Below are positions 1 through 5,460 of a DNA stretch of 5,460 nt, piece after piece. This DNA comes from Terriglobia bacterium. Its GTDB lineage: Bacteria > Acidobacteriota > Terriglobia > UBA7540. Numbering within the stretch: position 1 is the stretch's first letter; each line of letters opens with the position of its first letter. Both the position numbers and the translations under genes were made by a program. Under the pieces are notes generated by a model. The model ran no database searches and was not told the DNA's origin. It saw only the letters and a program-made list of their open reading frames with translations. The stretch covers positions 1 through 5,460 of the forward strand of contig JASHYZ010000105.1 in NCBI GenBank assembly GCA_030042795.1, given 5' to 3'.

Positions 1-418
1 CAGATTCAGGCACGCTCGAAAGATACGGTTTGATGTCCAGGATCGGAGTGCCTGCCAGCATGTCGACGCCTTGCACGCGAAGGCAGTTACCCTCGTGGTC
101 GAGCAGGCGCACCACCGTTAGCCCGATCGGATTTGGCCGGTACGGCGACCTTGTAGCAAACACCCCGTGAGGATGGGTGTTACACGGCGGCGTGCCCACC
201 AATTCATAGCCTTGGCTTCGATCAAAGACCCAGAAAACATAAAGGTGAGAAAACCCTTCGATGTCTCGCAAGCCTTCTTCGAACTCGGGTAGTATTTCAA
301 GAGTTCCCTCTTCCTCGTGCTTTGCTCCCCAAATCGCTGCCCTCGACCCTCCAATTGCACTCTCGCCGCATCAATCGCGATTCTTGGGCGTCCGAACTTC
401 GCTTGACACACGCTCCAC
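1..418 (-). pseudogene. trmO: TsaA/TrmO-like tRNA methyltransferase, 5' part with in-frame stop, 3' end off the left edge
   Basis: Reading the minus strand in one frame gives an unmistakable TsaA/TrmO-type domain: EGTLEILPEFEEGLRDIEGF (about 312-253), then SHLYVFWVFDR, then the family signature HGVFATRSPYRPNPIGL (about 172-122), then GVDMLAGTPILDIKPYL before the window edge. Family members (TrmO) use SAM to N6-methylate threonylcarbamoyladenosine-37 of some tRNAs; the beta-barrel domain is usually about 130-150 residues. Upstream the frame continues as VRTPKNRD, which fits the family's N-terminal strand, but a TGA at 373-371 interrupts it directly after that Asp. Between this stop and the conserved TLEI strand there is no ATG, GTG or TTG in frame, so no ordinary start restores the protein. 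The GTG at 418-416 is the assumed original start and is uncertain; another GTG lies at 409-407. I infer a nonsense-inactivated gene; a sequencing error or an unusual start such as ATT remains possible. The longest open frame in this interval is out of frame with the domain and is a shadow. Confidence 0.75.
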
Positions 419-565: not shown

Positions 566-1480
566 ATGCAACTACTTCACAGGCTCATCAGATTTGTTCG
601 GAAACCACCTCGCGAGAAATTGACGGCGGTCCAGGTCAAGGTGCAAGCCTACTGGCCCCACTGGTACGGACCGCAGGGTGTCCGAAGCCATTTGGAAGAC
701 TGGGGTAGGAGAGTTCCGCACCATGGAAACGATAGGACGGCTTACATCATTGGACTGTTTGGCACCGGGCGTTGGTACATCAATGAGCTGATGGTGAAGA
801 GTATTGGAGAGAGGAGGAAATATTTTAGGGACAAGGTCCGCCTCCATCCCGGCCCAACATCCATGATCTATAGCGGTCATGCCACGTTGAAGTATGCGTC
901 TCGCGCTCAGGCGTTGCCAGCGGTAACGAGCCGCATCTTGGAAGCTGTCACAGCAGGAGTTGCCGATTTGATCTTCATTTATCGTCATCCGCTTGATTCG
1001 TTGTTGACAAATTGGGTTTACTGGCGGACAAGCATTCGCGACAGCAAGGGGAGGGGCATCGTTGGTATCTTGCGGGCTTACAAAAACACTGGCGAACTGT
1101 GTGCCGATCTGGAACGGAATTTTCTTGAATTCAGGGCGTTTGCTGAAGGCAATCCTAATTTTTTCGCGATGGCGCCTGGGACCCGATTTCTGTCCTTCCG
1201 CGAATTTGTTGAGGAAACCGAGCTCTATCTCCAGTCCCCTGCGCTCAAGCTGCGGCTTGAGGACTTCATGATCGATCCTCTAAGCGAGTTTTCCAAGATC
1301 GTCGAAGTCATGTCCGTTGATCTTGATTTGAGCCGCGTAAGTTTGACTCCTCCCAGAGCCAAGCCCTACAACTTTTTGGCTGTTAAGGAAAAGGTAGCTC
1401 GATTTAGGGAGTTTATCAGCGGACTGGATATTGAGACAAAAGCGCGGATTGAGAGAATCGGCTATAGCCTTGGGGACTAA
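566..1480 (+). CDS. sulfotransferase-like protein (P-loop, PAPS-type fold), 304 aa
   Basis: The 304-residue protein shows the general plan of a sulfotransferase. A short strand followed by a glycine-rich loop, YIIGLFGTGRWYINEL (residues 60-75), sits where the 5'-phosphosulfate-binding loop belongs. Next comes DLIFIYRHPLDSLLTNW (134-150), matching the 3'-phosphate-binding segment with the usual Arg140 and a Ser at 145, and then a late RLEDF (230-234) typical of the family. The loop is a variant rather than the canonical PKSGTTW form, so the donor may differ from PAPS. No signal peptide or membrane segment is evident; a cytoplasmic protein is expected. The ATG at 566 is the first possible start because TAG immediately precedes it (563-565); no good ribosome binding site is visible, so a later start is possible. 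GC content is clearly lower than in the facing cluster (about 40% in sampled 60-base lines at 961 and 1381), suggesting a separate origin. The gene converges on the methyltransferase. Role inferred: transfer of a sulfo, or possibly phosphoramidate, group to a surface glycan. Family call fairly sure, substrate unknown. Confidence 0.8.
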   Translation: MQLLHRLIRFVRKPPREKLTAVQVKVQAYWPHWYGPQGVRSHLEDWGRRVPHHGNDRTAYIIGLFGTGRWYINELMVKSIGERRKYFRDKVRLHPGPTSMIYSGHATLKYASRAQALPAVTSRILEAVTAGVADLIFIYRHPLDSLLTNWVYWRTSIRDSKGRGIVGILRAYKNTGELCADLERNFLEFRAFAEGNPNFFAMAPGTRFLSFREFVEETELYLQSPALKLRLEDFMIDPLSEFSKIVEVMSVDLDLSRVSLTPPRAKPYNFLAVKEKVARFREFISGLDIETKARIERIGYSLGD

Positions 1481-1551: not shown

Positions 1552-2319
1552 CTATGCGCGCCGGGCCGCCCAGGCGCGGGTCCAGTAAATTGTCTCGATC
1601 GCCTCGCAGCCAGCGACGTGCTTCTCTACAAAGTCCAGGAACTGCCGGAAAAGTTGCGGGCCTAACTGCACTTGCAGATCGTTTACGGAGCGCCAAGCAC
1701 CGATATACTGCTCTGGCGTTTGACGCACGGAATGCCTGCCTTCCAGGTAAATTACCTCGACGAATTGGGGCTTGGCGCTCAACATATCGGTTAGTCGCTC
1801 GGTGATGCCGGAGCGGCCGGACGATATTCGCTGGATGCCAGGCTTGAGCCGCACGATCTGCGCTTCGATTTCGGCCAGCAGCGGGTTCGCCTCAATGAGG
1901 CGTGGATTCCACAATGCAGCGAAGACGCCGCCCGGCCGCAGGATGCGGTGGAACTCGTCGCACGCTTTATCAAAATCCGCCCAGTGGAGCGACGAGGCCA
2001 TGCTGACAAGATCGGCTGAGCCTGCCGGCAAGCCTGTGGCCTCTGCTGAACCTTTGTACCAGACAATGTTTTCGTCGCGCGAACTCTCGATCCCTTGCGC
2101 ACGCATTTCGTCGTTCGGTTCCACGGCCACGACGGAATGGACCCCGCGGGCGGCGAGCATGCGTGTCCAGATGCCGGTGCCAGCGCCAAGGTCGGCAGCG
2201 TCGATGCTGGCCACATCGCGTCCGACATACCCCAGGATCGCGGTGGCAACCTGCGGCGCATAGCCTGGCCGGAACTTGGCATAGTCGCCAGCCAATCCTG
2301 TAAAATCCCCGTGTTTCAT
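1552..2319 (-). CDS. class I SAM-dependent methyltransferase, possible phosphoramidate O-methyltransferase
   Basis: The 255-residue protein has a UbiE/type-11-like Rossmann methyltransferase domain: FTGLAGDYAKFRPGY near the N-terminus, motif I DLGAGTGIWTRML (residues 43-55), an acidic end of strand 2 at AVEPN (65-69), GSAEATGLPAGSADLV (90-105) with the motif-II-like Asp, and FHRILRPGGVFAALWN (123-138). Residues 140-255 form a helical and strand C-terminal cap that probably binds the acceptor. ATG 2319 is chosen because a TAG lies four codons upstream in frame; the ribosome binding site is poor. The gene is last in the minus-strand unit, 87 bp after the nucleotidyltransferase. In Campylobacter the equivalent cluster carries two methyltransferases, Cj1419 and Cj1420, linked to the O-methyl group of MeOPN, so a similar role is inferred here from context only. 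This broad family also methylates small metabolites, quinones and lipids, so the substrate cannot be read from the sequence. Confidence 0.85.
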   Translation of the reverse strand: MKHGDFTGLAGDYAKFRPGYAPQVATAILGYVGRDVASIDAADLGAGTGIWTRMLAARGVHSVVAVEPNDEMRAQGIESSRDENIVWYKGSAEATGLPAGSADLVSMASSLHWADFDKACDEFHRILRPGGVFAALWNPRLIEANPLLAEIEAQIVRLKPGIQRISSGRSGITERLTDMLSAKPQFVEVIYLEGRHSVRQTPEQYIGAWRSVNDLQVQLGPQLFRQFLDFVEKHVAGCEAIETIYWTRAWAARRA

Positions 2320-2330
2320 TCCGAGTTGTA

Positions 2331-2350
2331 GCTAGCGGTGATCCGCTGGC
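2331..2350. other. imperfect hairpin between nucleotidyltransferase and methyltransferase genes
   Basis: On the plus strand GCTAGCGG (2331-2338) and CCGCTGGC (2343-2350) are inverted copies with one mismatch and a 4-base loop. In the minus-strand transcript the hairpin lies 11 nt before the methyltransferase ATG. There is no T-run after it, so it is not a convincing terminator; it could reduce translation of the methyltransferase or stabilise mRNA. The rest of the 87-bp gap (2320-2406) shows nothing recognisable. Confidence 0.3.
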
Positions 2351-2406
2351 GGCTTCGACAGACGCCAACCTCCCGATGACCGGCCTGCCGTGTGATTCGA
2401 TCGCGT

Positions 2407-3183
2407 TCATCCTGTCGGCTTCGTGCCGGCTGGCGGATCTTCGAGCAGGAGCTCCCCTTTCTCTACCATGTCCTCGTACAGCGCCACGTCTTCCGGATTG
2501 TCGATCTCGCCCCACTGACCATCGGTGGCAAAGGTGTCTATGGGTACGGTCTTTGCCACCAACAACCGTCGGAGCAATGCTGTCATATCGAGGCAATCGC
2601 GGGTGGGTTGCTCGACGGTATCGAGCAGCGCCGCCACGGTACGCCACGCCGGTGGCGTAAATTTCAAGAGGCCCATATATTGGCCTTGGATGTCTTCGAT
2701 CCGCTTCGTTTTGCCGCCGATTTCCAGCAGTTGACCTGCACCATCGATTCGGAAGGTCTCGGCATCGGCCAACGGATCGTCGAAGCGCCGGCTCCACAAG
2801 CGGTGCCAGGCCCGGTCGTAGCTGATCACCAACTGGCCCGGAGCACTGGCCAGACCGCGCACCAATTCGCTGCGATAAAAGATGTCGCCATAGCTGACGA
2901 TGACCGGCGCCGAAGAGAGCCAGGGAGCGGCCGCAGCGAGCGACATCACGATGTTGGTGTCAGCCCATCGTTCGTTGGCGAAATAGGAGAGGCCTGCAAA
3001 ATCGATCATCTCCGCGCGATAGCCGCGGACCACTCCGATTTTGTCCACCCCGCCCTGCCGAAGCGCCGCGATCTGGCGCTCGATTAACGGCTTGCCTTTA
3101 AGTTCGACCAAGCACTTCGGACGGTCACCGGTCAGATGCCCCAGACGGCTGCCTCGACCGGCCGCGAGAATAACTGCGCGCAT
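2407..3183 (-). CDS. nucleotidyltransferase, likely CTP:phosphoglutamine cytidylyltransferase (Cj1416-like)
   Basis: The 258-residue protein is a nucleotidyltransferase of the sugar-phosphate type. It opens with the NTP-binding signature AVILAAGRGSRLGHLT followed by RPKCL (residues 3-25, with Arg13 and Lys23), then KPLIERQIAAL. A metal-site motif SYGDIFY has Asp100, and the C-terminus carries GQWGEIDNPEDVALYE (222-237), the W-x-E-I-D element seen in cytidylyltransferases of this type. It is cytoplasmic, of ordinary length, with no extra domains. In C. jejuni, Cj1416 joins CTP and L-glutamine phosphate to give CDP-L-glutamine and pyrophosphate; I propose the same reaction because of the flanking kinase and amidotransferase, not from the sequence alone. 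Without that context it could be a sugar-1-phosphate or phosphocholine nucleotidyltransferase. The start overlaps the amidotransferase stop by one base (TAATG at 3185-3181), and an AGGG about 8 nt upstream can serve as ribosome binding site, so translation is probably coupled. Confidence 0.85.
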   Translation of the reverse strand: MRAVILAAGRGSRLGHLTGDRPKCLVELKGKPLIERQIAALRQGGVDKIGVVRGYRAEMIDFAGLSYFANERWADTNIVMSLAAAAPWLSSAPVIVSYGDIFYRSELVRGLASAPGQLVISYDRAWHRLWSRRFDDPLADAETFRIDGAGQLLEIGGKTKRIEDIQGQYMGLLKFTPPAWRTVAALLDTVEQPTRDCLDMTALLRRLLVAKTVPIDTFATDGQWGEIDNPEDVALYEDMVEKGELLLEDPPAGTKPTG

Positions 3184-3785
3184 TACTCAACCCTGAAAAA
3201 GCGCCGGAAGAGTAGCACGTCGGCGGGCGAGAACGGCGCGGACCGCTCAGGGTGCCACATGATTCCAGTTATAGGCTGGGCCGAATGGCGAACGGCCTCG
3301 ACAACACCGTCGTCGGCAACCGCCCAGACTTCGAGCGGCGGTCGTGAGTTGAAGGCGGCGAAGTGGTGGTAGCTGTTTACCTCCCTCAGTTCGCCGTCGA
3401 CATGGATCACCTGACTCTTGGCCACATGGCCTTCCACACGGCGGAGCCCAATAGCGAAATGCTGCTGGATCACCTGCATGCCCCGGCAAACGCCCAAGAC
3501 CGGCAGTCCGCGCCGCGCCGCCCAACTGAGCAGGCCGTGCTCGACGGCGTCACGCTCCGGGGCATCGCCGCCATATTCCGCCAGATCGTTCCCGCCGGTT
3601 AGCAGCAACCCGGCGATATCTGCCCACTCACACAAGGCAAGCGCCGTATCCGTGACATTGGGCAGCAACACGGGAAAGAGCCCACAGGCCGCCAGGAACT
3701 TTGTCCACGCTTGATCCAGGCAATCACGGCGCTCGCCATACTCGGGAATGATCGATACCCGCTGGGTGACGGCGACCGCTTTCAT
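3183..3785 (-). CDS. class I glutamine amidotransferase-fold hydrolase, likely gamma-glutamyl-CDP-amidate hydrolase (Cj1417-like)
   Basis: The 200-residue protein is a stand-alone class I GATase-fold peptidase related to gamma-glutamyl-GABA hydrolases (PuuD type). The oxyanion region GLLLTGGNDLAEYGG (residues 59-73) precedes the nucleophile elbow GVCRGMQ with Cys100 (codon 3488-3486). Next comes NSYHHFA (137-143) and the His-Glu pair in MWHPER, His178 and Glu180, completing the triad. There is no synthase domain or ammonia channel partner in the window, which suits a hydrolase. In C. jejuni, Cj1417 cleaves gamma-glutamyl-CDP-amidate to cytidine diphosphoramidate and glutamate; the same role is inferred from the neighbours. 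The start MKAVAVTQ at 3785 is preferred over an in-frame ATG 60 bases upstream: it aligns with the usual beginning of the fold and gives an ATGA overlap with the preceding gene's stop. It also overlaps the next gene by one base. The alternative is a polyamine or amino-acid gamma-glutamyl hydrolase. Confidence 0.88.
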   Translation of the reverse strand: MKAVAVTQRVSIIPEYGERRDCLDQAWTKFLAACGLFPVLLPNVTDTALALCEWADIAGLLLTGGNDLAEYGGDAPERDAVEHGLLSWAARRGLPVLGVCRGMQVIQQHFAIGLRRVEGHVAKSQVIHVDGELREVNSYHHFAAFNSRPPLEVWAVADDGVVEAVRHSAQPITGIMWHPERSAPFSPADVLLFRRFFRVE

Positions 3786-5460
3786 GCGATCACCAAGACC
3801 CTCTGGTTCGTGCAGTCGAGGCAGAGCTTGCGCGCCGTCTGCCACTGCCGGAACAGACCTTCGCCGGCCCCGATCACCGCGGGAATGCCGAGTTCGCCGG
3901 CACGGATCGCCATGTGTGAATTGGCGCCACCGAACTGGGTGACGAATCCACTGATCTTGCGGGTAAAGATCCAGTCAAAGCCGGGGTCCGCGCTGGGCAC
4001 AAAAAGAATCCGTCCGGCGAAGGTCTCCGGCGGGTCGGTAACCGAGGCCAGCGGTGCAATGATGCTTTTTCGTGTAATGAAATTGGGCTGGCTTGGGGGA
4101 ACGTGAAATGCGACGACCTGGTCGGGCGATGCGATGATCGGCGGTAGCACAAGATCGCGCGTGAGCGCGTGACGCTCTTTGCCCTGAGCAATACTCTGCT
4201 GTAACGCCTGGCAAACTGAACCGCTCTCGCTGTAAAGCTTGCGAATGGCACCGTAGTCCAGAAATGCGCAATCCTCCGCTGAAAGGCCGTTATCCTCGCC
4301 CAACTGCCGGATCAGCGAGAGAGCGTCGCTCAGGCTCCGTGTAAACACGAACTTCGCAAATTCCCGGCCCTCAATGCCGGCCTTAATGAACTCGATCAAA
4401 CTCAGTACGTCAATCTCGAGCCCGTGTTCCTTGAGCAGTTGCTCGATGTGGCGCAACTGCTCGATGGAGAGCACGAAGCGGGGTGGAGGAGGCGCCGGCG
4501 GCTGGGCGCTCGACCAGTCGAAATACAGATCAGGCGCCTCGTCGTAACGGGGCGAGAGGATGTCGTAGGTTCCCGGCCGGAGGTGGCCGTAGCGCGCCAG
4601 GAACTCTGCCTTTGGAAGTTCTGCAAAATCCCGCCCGATGTGCGACCCGATGCCGTCGACGCTAGCCATGAATGTCGCGCTCTCTTCAGTGCCGAGAACC
4701 CCCACGTCTACCAGGGACTGGAGCATCTGAACCGCTATGAAGCCCGCCCGCGCGAGGCCGGCGAAAGGCAGCGTACCGTATCGCTTGCAGTCTTCGATCA
4801 GCCAGTAAATGCGGCTGATCTTGTCGATTTTTGCGTTCCAGATGGCCGGAAGCCGCTGTGCCAGCAAGTCAATCTTTGCGCGGTCAAGCCGCCACAGCGC
4901 GGTCTCACCGTGCATGATTCGATTCGTCAGGCGCCGTAAGGCGCCGGCGAGTTCCTCAAGATCTTGCGGAGAAAATCCGCTCTCGGCGAGCTTGCCCATC
5001 CGCTTCGGCAAGTCGAGGCTGTAGCAGGAAAAAATGATCTCGAATTCGACCTTGTCGTGAAGCCGCGGCTCGGAGAGAAGACGATCAATGTAGTAATTCG
5101 CGAGGCGCGCGGCAAGATCGTCGGGCAGGTCGCGCGGGATAAACGAGTTGAAGCTCACCCGCACGTCGATGTAGGGCAGCCCGTGAAAACTGACCATCAG
5201 CGGAAAACTACGAAGATTCCGATACCCGTAGTTGTCCCGCTGATACGCCCAGATGGCGTCGGTGATGAGTTCGCTATAAAGCGACAACGACAGGGGATAG
5301 GGCCGCAACCCGATCATTTCTGCTGGATTCCAGTCCGGCATGACCCCGAATATCGCACGGCTGCCGTGGAGGTAAGGGTGCGGGCGGCTCAGTAACTCGA
5401 CTTTGCGCGCCACCTCCACCAGCGCGGCGTCGACCTTGGCGTCCATTGCCGGCTCTTGAC
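3782..5460 (-). CDS. PEP-synthase-like phosphotransferase, likely L-glutamine kinase (Cj1418-like), 5' end off the right edge
   Basis: The C-terminus is a PEP-utiliser swivelling phosphohistidine domain. It has ADPGFDWIF followed by FGGANSHMAIRAGELGIPAVIG, with the catalytic His in the NSH motif (codon 3916-3914). A central region contains PDWNPAEMIG, PLSLSLYSELITDAIWAYQR and YGHLRPGTYDI, and a proline-rich linker PPAPPPP lies at 4501-4481. The protein ends about 45 residues after the catalytic His, so it lacks the C-terminal PEP/pyruvate barrel that follows this domain in PEP synthase and PPDK. This layout matches C. jejuni Cj1418, which uses ATP and a phosphohistidine to phosphorylate the L-glutamine amide, the first step of phosphoramidate synthesis. 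An ATG at 5446 would give 554 residues. The frame stays open to position 5460 and the N-terminal ATP-binding domain expected for the family is not seen, so the gene probably starts beyond the window. Its TGA overlaps the next ATG (ATGA). The family call is firm; the glutamine substrate is inferred from the gene order. Confidence 0.85.
   Translation of the reverse strand, partial: QEPAMDAKVDAALVEVARKVELLSRPHPYLHGSRAIFGVMPDWNPAEMIGLRPYPLSLSLYSELITDAIWAYQRDNYGYRNLRSFPLMVSFHGLPYIDVRVSFNSFIPRDLPDDLAARLANYYIDRLLSEPRLHDKVEFEIIFSCYSLDLPKRMGKLAESGFSPQDLEELAGALRRLTNRIMHGETALWRLDRAKIDLLAQRLPAIWNAKIDKISRIYWLIEDCKRYGTLPFAGLARAGFIAVQMLQSLVDVGVLGTEESATFMASVDGIGSHIGRDFAELPKAEFLARYGHLRPGTYDILSPRYDEAPDLYFDWSSAQPPAPPPPRFVLSIEQLRHIEQLLKEHGLEIDVLSLIEFIKAGIEGREFAKFVFTRSLSDALSLIRQLGEDNGLSAEDCAFLDYGAIRKLYSESGSVCQALQQSIAQGKERHALTRDLVLPPIIASPDQVVAFHVPPSQPNFITRKSIIAPLASVTDPPETFAGRILFVPSADPGFDWIFTRKISGFVTQFGGANSHMAIRAGELGIPAVIGAGEGLFRQWQTARKLCLDCTNQRVLVIA

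Follow-up and report, generated by a model that had tools for sequence, protein, structure and literature searches.

A probable phosphoramidate donor cassette and an adjacent sulfotransferase-fold gene in a Terriglobia bacterium: a candidate route for phosphoramidate transfer

Results

Genes of the window

We analysed a stretch of 5,460 nucleotides from a Terriglobia bacterium (assembly GCA_030042795.1, contig JASHYZ010000105.1), called the window in what follows. Its minus strand carries a cassette of four genes that resemble, in families and in order, genes of the O-methyl phosphoramidate (MeOPN) pathway of Campylobacter jejuni; beside them, on the plus strand, lies a gene of what we call the ST family, with a predicted sulfotransferase fold. 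The five genes are:

566..1480, plus strand: ST-family protein of sulfotransferase fold, predicted from fold and linkage to be a phosphoramidoyl transferase using 3'-phospho-CDP-amidate instead of 3'-phosphoadenosine 5'-phosphosulfate (PAPS)
1552..2319, minus strand: class I S-adenosylmethionine (SAM) methyltransferase (Methyltransf_11), a frequent cassette partner
2407..3183, minus strand: predicted cytidylyltransferase (NTP_transf_3), with a Cj1416-like role
3183..3785, minus strand: predicted gamma-glutamyl-CDP-amidate hydrolase of class I GATase fold (Peptidase_C26/GATase), triad intact
3782..5458, minus strand: predicted glutamine kinase, C-terminal 558 codons, with the central region and the phosphohistidine swivel domain; open at the window edge

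A sequence-only reading of positions 1552..5460 had stopped short of the ST gene; the four minus-strand genes that it described are in place, with the families that it named. The kinase and hydrolase genes overlap by a few bases (ATGA), as do the hydrolase and nucleotidyltransferase genes (TAATG). Motifs whose active-site roles we assume are intact in all four proteins: GGANSHMAI in the kinase, with His511 of the 554-amino-acid piece; Cys100, His178 and Glu180 in the hydrolase; GRGSRL...RPK in the nucleotidyltransferase; and DLGAGTG in the methyltransferase.

The kinase matches the PEP-utilizers family with 53.7 bits, over the cut-off, and model NF004508 (PRK05849, titled 'hypothetical protein', which presumably covers Cj1418) with 711 bits for a cut-off of 501, along model positions 229-788 of 789. 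The stand-alone, 'barrel-less' kinase of the sequence-only reading results from where the window stops: at base 5458 the frame is still open, inside the gene. The closest relative among the 120 listed, P0001, is 970 amino acids long and 92% identical over the shared part: it begins with a domain like adenosine 5'-phosphosulfate (APS) kinase (PF01583), followed by an ATP-binding domain (PPDK_N, PF01326), then by a part like that in the window, with PF00391. Ten of these 120 relatives, 81-87% identical, carry the source name 'glutamine kinase'. The best NCBIfam match of the hydrolase is NF045546, the gamma-glutamyl-CDP-amidate hydrolase model, at a score below its cut-off, and among solved structures the nucleotidyltransferase is closest in sequence to CTP:phosphocholine cytidylyltransferase (1jyk, E = 9.5e-13, residues 2-102).

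Sulfotransferases that use PAPS have a 5'-loop of PKSGTTW type. The ST protein, to which fold prediction assigns the sulfotransferase fold, has no Pfam sulfotransferase family match at E<1, and its loop reads GLFGTGRxY, with G63, G66, G68, R69 and Y71 invariant in 36 of 36. The family counts 1030 proteins at E<=0.001; all of the 120 listed are without a Pfam domain. Of 29 pattern matches to the family in viral contigs, none was confirmed.

Linkage of the ST family with the cassette

Scanning one genome per species yields 19 ST-family loci, 17 of them titled as Acidobacteriota-type metagenome-assembled genomes (MAGs); the exceptions are L008 (Verrucomicrobia) and L019 (Bradyrhizobium, 36% identity). 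A Terriglobia MAG contig, L001, is 84% identical to the window in DNA over 4.8 kb, from base 682 to base 5446, and holds all five genes in the same arrangement. The window has a GC content of 58.8%. The alphaproteobacterial host that had been proposed for it is rejected, the nearest loci being Terriglobia/Bryobacteraceae-type MAGs; in all likelihood the host is an acidobacterium like these.

The kinase is found in 12 of the 19 loci, and the hydrolase and nucleotidyltransferase accompany it in all 12. Eleven of the 12 have a methyltransferase (L009 has none), which in L008, L011 and L015 is of a 31-35% identical type that sits between cassette genes; eleven have an APS-kinase domain, the twelfth, L001, being cut by the contig end. 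A single cassette gene is found in L005 and L014 (in both, a methyltransferase at the contig end) and in L019 (APS kinase), and none in L003, L010, L012 and L018.

These loci come from 17 genomes, since L010 and L018 share their MAG titles with L007 and L003. In 16 of the 17 the kinase scores over its cut-off; only the Bradyrhizobium MAG G017 falls short. Of 297 genomes sampled evenly from the phylum of G004, five have the kinase over the cut-off, G004 included (in G151 it is in two pieces and under the cut-off), and one, G004 itself, has the ST family. Comparing 16/17 with 4/296 by Fisher's test gives 3e-22, a value that ignores kinship among the genomes.

The cassette-linked APS-kinase-like domain, fused in 16 of the ST genomes and a separate gene in G017, falls below the apsK cut-off in all 17; a second apsK, one that passes, is present in 11 of these genomes. 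Judged by these scores, this argues that the cassette domain is not an ordinary APS kinase.

The cassette also occurs away from the ST family. Six further Acidobacteriota kinase loci, L052-L057, have no ST gene nearby, though the genomes of L056 and L057 bear one elsewhere: all six carry APS kinase, glutamine kinase, hydrolase, nucleotidyltransferase and methyltransferase, 33-81% identical to the query proteins, the APS kinase being a separate gene in L052-L055. Of 398 genomes from the phylum of G017 (locus title Bradyrhizobium), 14 have the kinase over its cut-off, as do 2 of 194 from that of G008, G008 included. Sixteen more loci, L079-L094, from 15 genomes with G008 left out, hold the hydrolase and nucleotidyltransferase in the same stretch in 14 cases (about 6 kb apart in L083), an APS kinase in nine, a methyltransferase in nine, one of them weak (62 bits), and the ST family in none. 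The recurrence of kinase, hydrolase and nucleotidyltransferase together in 12/12, 6/6 and 14/16 loci bears out the view that the gene set is not due to chance; with the kinase over its cut-off in 14/398 and 5/297 genomes, the cassette is less singular than had been supposed.

Two arrangements stand apart. A B12-binding radical SAM enzyme lies next to the cassette at L054:1677-3089 (+) and L055:7200-8738 (-), adjoining a Gal-3-O-sulfotransferase-like protein, and possibly provides an extra methylation or tailoring step. On Agrobacterium vitis plasmid pRvVAT039a (L102), kinase, hydrolase and cytidylyltransferase, in a stretch with no annotated APS kinase or methyltransferase, are followed by LysE and a CDP-alcohol phosphatidyltransferase gene; this cassette may make a different phosphoramidate product.

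Sulfotransferases near the wider cassette

We scanned every one of the 21 genomes behind the 22 kinase loci L052-L057 and L079-L094 with the profiles PF13469 and PF00685. A Pfam sulfotransferase lies within 5 kb of the kinase in 11 of the 22 (expected 0.35) and within 10 kb likewise in 11 (expected 0.62). The expectation takes the number of sulfotransferases per genome and places them uniformly, a model that makes the result look too surprising, since these genes tend to group with those for surface glycans. For the control gene rmlB (TIGR01181), none of 20 places has a sulfotransferase within 5 kb and 2 of the 20 have one within 10 kb; the cassette differs from it with Fisher values of 1.6e-4 and 0.006, respectively.

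The neighbours are of several types: TPR-Sulfotransfer_3 (L079, L089, L090), tandem Sulfotransfer_3 (L056, L083) and Sulfotransfer_1 (L080, L088, L094). The sulfotransferase of L052 (28.9 bits, cut-off 27), missed by the uniform search, is counted as absent, and a weak Gal-3-O-sulfotransferase match in L055 (17.7 bits, cut-off 27), with a 40% identical homologue in L054, is not counted. The neighbour proteins compared with Pfam had been picked by eye (three sets of 10, and 20 in two further sets, out of 171 non-core open reading frames, ORFs); for this reason the adjacency count was taken from the uniform genome searches. A regular expression for sulfotransferase motifs gave nothing among 606 ORFs less core matches; it missed genes confirmed later and was dropped. 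On plasmids, nine of 14 matches were opened, one of them unannotated (H5, H6, H8, H12, H14 and the unannotated phage match H15 were left out): a sulfotransferase lies 2.7 kb after the kinase in Azospirillum lipoferum 4B, and about 4.4 kb from it, on the other strand, in A. ramasamyi.

A predicted pathway and its final step

Taken together, the gene families, the intact motifs, the fusion in relatives, the fold prediction and the genomic linkage suggest that the window holds most of a five-activity phosphoramidate donor pathway, together with a candidate enzyme that uses the donor; we give this reading a probability of roughly 0.6. What we infer are the reactions in the host, the point at which the methyl group is added and the nature of the acceptor. 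The nucleotidyltransferase would join the kinase product to CTP, yielding gamma-glutamyl-CDP-amidate, from which the GATase-fold hydrolase would free glutamate to leave CDP-amidate (CDP-NH2). The APS-kinase-like domain, fused ahead of the kinase in relatives, would then phosphorylate the 3'-OH to give 3'-phospho-CDP-amidate. The ST protein would read this compound as a PAPS analogue and move the phosphoramidate to an acceptor hydroxyl, leaving cytidine 3',5'-bisphosphate. Finally, the methyltransferase, a candidate for O-methylation, would add its methyl group to the phosphoramidate or to the acceptor, which by default we guess to be a cell-surface glycan.

Sulfotransferases bind two features of PAPS, the ribose 3'-phosphate and the transferable group on the 5'-phosphate. 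CDP-phosphoramidate 3'-phosphate shares both, and both molecules are made by an APS-kinase relative: it is therefore that sulfotransferase-fold enzymes are proposed as the phosphoramidate movers. In C. jejuni, Cj1415-Cj1418 are reported to make this 3'-phosphate, the likely donor (PMC11800397). If the proposal is true, transfer by the sulfotransferase fold would explain the final APS-kinase-like 3'-phosphorylation of the pathway, and would name the missing class of phosphoramidoyl transferases.

For the Cj1418-1417-1416 pathway advanced by the sequence-only reading, family content and order fit, and the reading gains strength from the domain fused in relatives, which would supply the Cj1415 step; the hydrolase is below the equivalog cut-off. 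The pathway so proposed is probably correct, except that it is fused, is more widespread and belongs to a different phylum, and the host may carry a phosphoramidate-decorated glycan.

Several observations weigh against this picture. The window hydrolase reaches 121.7 of the 250 bits of the NF045546 cut-off, which was passed in none of nine genomes of relatives searched, seven of which gave a match. The ATP-binding domain and the domain of the 3'-phosphorylation step both fall outside the window. Foldseek TM-scores of the ST protein against sulfotransferases are low (about 0.3-0.45, rmsd 8-15), only the VIA alignment being strong. G017 has the ST gene and an APS kinase, with neither a glutamine kinase over the cut-off nor a hydrolase match; more generally, the genomes counted are related to each other, and many are incomplete MAGs. 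Half of the wider loci (11/22) have no Pfam sulfotransferase near, and one is listed in two of the eight annotated plasmid stretches. A rule by which an APS kinase in the locus predicts a sulfotransferase neighbour fails: there is one in 7 of 15 loci with APS kinase and in 4 of 7 without. Other candidate transferases exist, namely Glyphos_transf in L086, a CDP-glycerol glycerophosphotransferase with the cassette of Vibrio alfacsensis and a CDP-alcohol phosphatidyltransferase with that of Agrobacterium vitis. Because some loci carry such genes instead, more than one kind of phosphoramidate transferase may exist.

Alternative explanations

The strongest rival accepts the donor pathway and sees in the ST protein an ordinary PAPS sulfotransferase acting on the same glycan, with another enzyme moving the phosphoramidate, of the CDP-dependent glycerophosphotransferase type or of the Cj1421/Cj1422 type. 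We hold it to be unlikely, if worth serious attention. The ST fold is that of PAPS enzymes, a glycan-sulfating enzyme would produce the same linkage, and the replacement of sulfotransferases by phosphotransferase genes in some cassettes, like their indifference to APS kinase, agrees with it. PAPS is probably available: canonical apsK is over its cut-off in 11 of the 17 ST genomes, five of which also have the ATP-sulfurylase PF01747. However, six of the 17 have neither (CysDN lay outside the search, and the MAGs are incomplete), the ST family hardly occurs outside genomes that have the kinase (16/17), and several Pfam sulfotransferase types adjoin the cassette more often than they adjoin rmlB.

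In a second rival, the locus is a sulfation operon: the sulfotransferase would receive its PAPS from the APS-kinase domain, and the other three enzymes (kinase, hydrolase and nucleotidyltransferase) would have unrelated tasks. The domain does belong to the APS-kinase family and accompanies a sulfotransferase fold, and cysD/cysN lie next to the cassette in Vibrio alfacsensis; for C. jejuni HS:19, a proposal exists that a cysD-cysN-cysC-sulphotransferase cluster sulphates biomolecules (PMC8743553). But the domain is fused to a glutamine-kinase-like protein and is under the apsK cut-off throughout, the hydrolase is best matched by a gamma-glutamyl-CDP-amidate hydrolase, and the three supposedly unrelated genes still occur together in five loci that gave no APS kinase (L079, L082, L083, L091, L092), so that we regard this reading as very improbable. 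Least probable of all is that the three enzymes act on another amide or alcohol to make a different CDP- or NDP-activated compound, as the phosphocholine cytidylyltransferase likeness and the sub-threshold hydrolase would allow, against all the activities of the known pathway standing in one block with a fused 3'-kinase, and against the ten relatives named 'glutamine kinase'.

Fused forms and neighbouring genes

The window's own ST protein stands alone; in four other loci the ST domain is C-terminal to a BrxC-like part, in proteins of 823-965 amino acids:

L003:362-3259, plus strand: BrxC-like part followed by ST domain
L009:3794-6568, plus strand: the same
L017:7862-10756, plus strand: the same
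L018:8030-10501, plus strand: the same

They are mutually 50-62% identical, and their first 520-555 residues or so match the N-terminal (ATPase) half of BREX BrxC/PglY; that of L003 scores 387.5 bits with NF033441 (cut-off 400) and 385.9 bits with PADLOC model PDLC02476. A database search with linker plus ST found 248 proteins, and 97 of the 120 listed have both the BrxC-like part (>350 aligned residues) and ST: the fused branch is large, in Bryobacteraceae-type soil bacteria. No other BREX gene was recognised near the fusions by eye from ORF beginnings, no systematic search having been made. Tentatively, at a little under even odds, the sulfotransferase fold was recruited, perhaps several times, for phosphoramidate transfer, and the BrxC fusion may couple it to an ATP-driven machine, possibly derived from phage defence.

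A defence role for the cassette proper was considered and rejected: at E<=0.01, PADLOC recognised none of ST, kinase, hydrolase and nucleotidyltransferase, and the match of the methyltransferase to mads_2 (51.4 bits) is taken as generic SAM-methyltransferase similarity.

Some neighbours of ST genes deserve mention. A shared protein of 420-440 amino acids adjoins the gene at L002:10886-12214, L013:2432-3760, L014:10791-12059 and L017:10757-12061; by eye, it has a Tat-signal-like start, then a metallophosphatase-like stretch, and comparing the L013 copy with Pfam gave nothing at E<0.01. The ST and kinase genes of L008 are separated by an inositol-phosphatase-family gene, which could encode an enzyme that removes the transfer by-product; its scores are under the cut-offs both for TIGR01331 (CysQ similarity, 113.5 bits for 228.8) and for its best match, a histidinol-phosphatase model (118.4 bits). 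Around the 36% identical ST of the Bradyrhizobium MAG (L019) are the APS kinase, a methyltransferase, RgpF, dTDP-rhamnose-type genes (by eye) and a 1382-amino-acid protein that has a GT2 domain and weakly matches Sulfotransfer_3. A further gene of the window runs off its start, divergent from the ST gene and apparently unrelated:

2-271, minus strand: partial TrmO/TsaA-type tRNA methyltransferase gene (96.6 bits, cut-off 93.25)

Comparison with known systems

The nearest known system is the MeOPN pathway of C. jejuni (Cj1415-Cj1418, with transferases Cj1421/Cj1422), which shares the glutamine-kinase family, the GATase-fold hydrolase, the NTP-transferase, the methyltransferase and, in the window's relatives, an APS-kinase-like 3'-kinase in the locus; we take the order Cj1418-1417-1416 to be kinase, hydrolase, nucleotidyltransferase, as in the window. 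The likeness is one of families and gene order rather than of comparison with the Cj1415-Cj1422 sequences, and we say that the cassette probably works like the Campylobacter pathway without claiming the same equivalogs. Unlike in C. jejuni, relatives carry the APS-kinase-like domain and the glutamine kinase in one protein, a sulfotransferase-fold gene lies beside the cassette, the host is of Acidobacteriota type, and no capsule genes appear among the window ORFs with family matches. A further caution is that HS:19 is proposed to have its sulphation cluster (cysD, cysN, cysC, sulphotransferase) apart from MeOPN (PMC8743553), so both chemistries can share one genome.

With respect to the PAPS sulfotransferases Teg12, StaL and SULT1/2, the window protein differs by its GLFGTGRxY loop, by having no Pfam sulfotransferase match and by its genomic partner, a CDP-amidate cassette. 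On plasmid AZO_p6 of Azospirillum lipoferum 4B are an APS kinase, a methyltransferase, a PEP-utilizing enzyme, a hydrolase and a cytidylyltransferase, with a sulfotransferase one gene further; the host is alphaproteobacterial, the kinase is 57.6% identical, and the APS kinase is annotated in a separate gene of 846 codons. The lipopolysaccharides of Xanthomonas campestris and Shewanella bear phosphoramidate, described without O-methyl (PMC3907429): phosphoramidate on surface glycans extends beyond Campylobacter.

In the open-access literature, subscription papers being mostly outside the search, we found none linking sulfotransferases to phosphoramidate transfer and none tying the cassette to Acidobacteriota; in PMC8708908, 'methyl phosphoramidate' and 'sulfotransferase' co-occur in the reference list only. 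A 2026 paper calls the enzymatic details of methyl phosphoramidate addition to the Campylobacter capsule 'currently unclear' (PMC13276843). The gene pairing described here makes the transfer step testable, including why the donor carries a 3'-phosphate. P-N bonds are rare on natural products and glycans; the likely makers of phosphoramidate now widen to soil Acidobacteriota and to a few percent of the sample from the phylum of G017, and a role is proposed for an ST family of about a thousand proteins.

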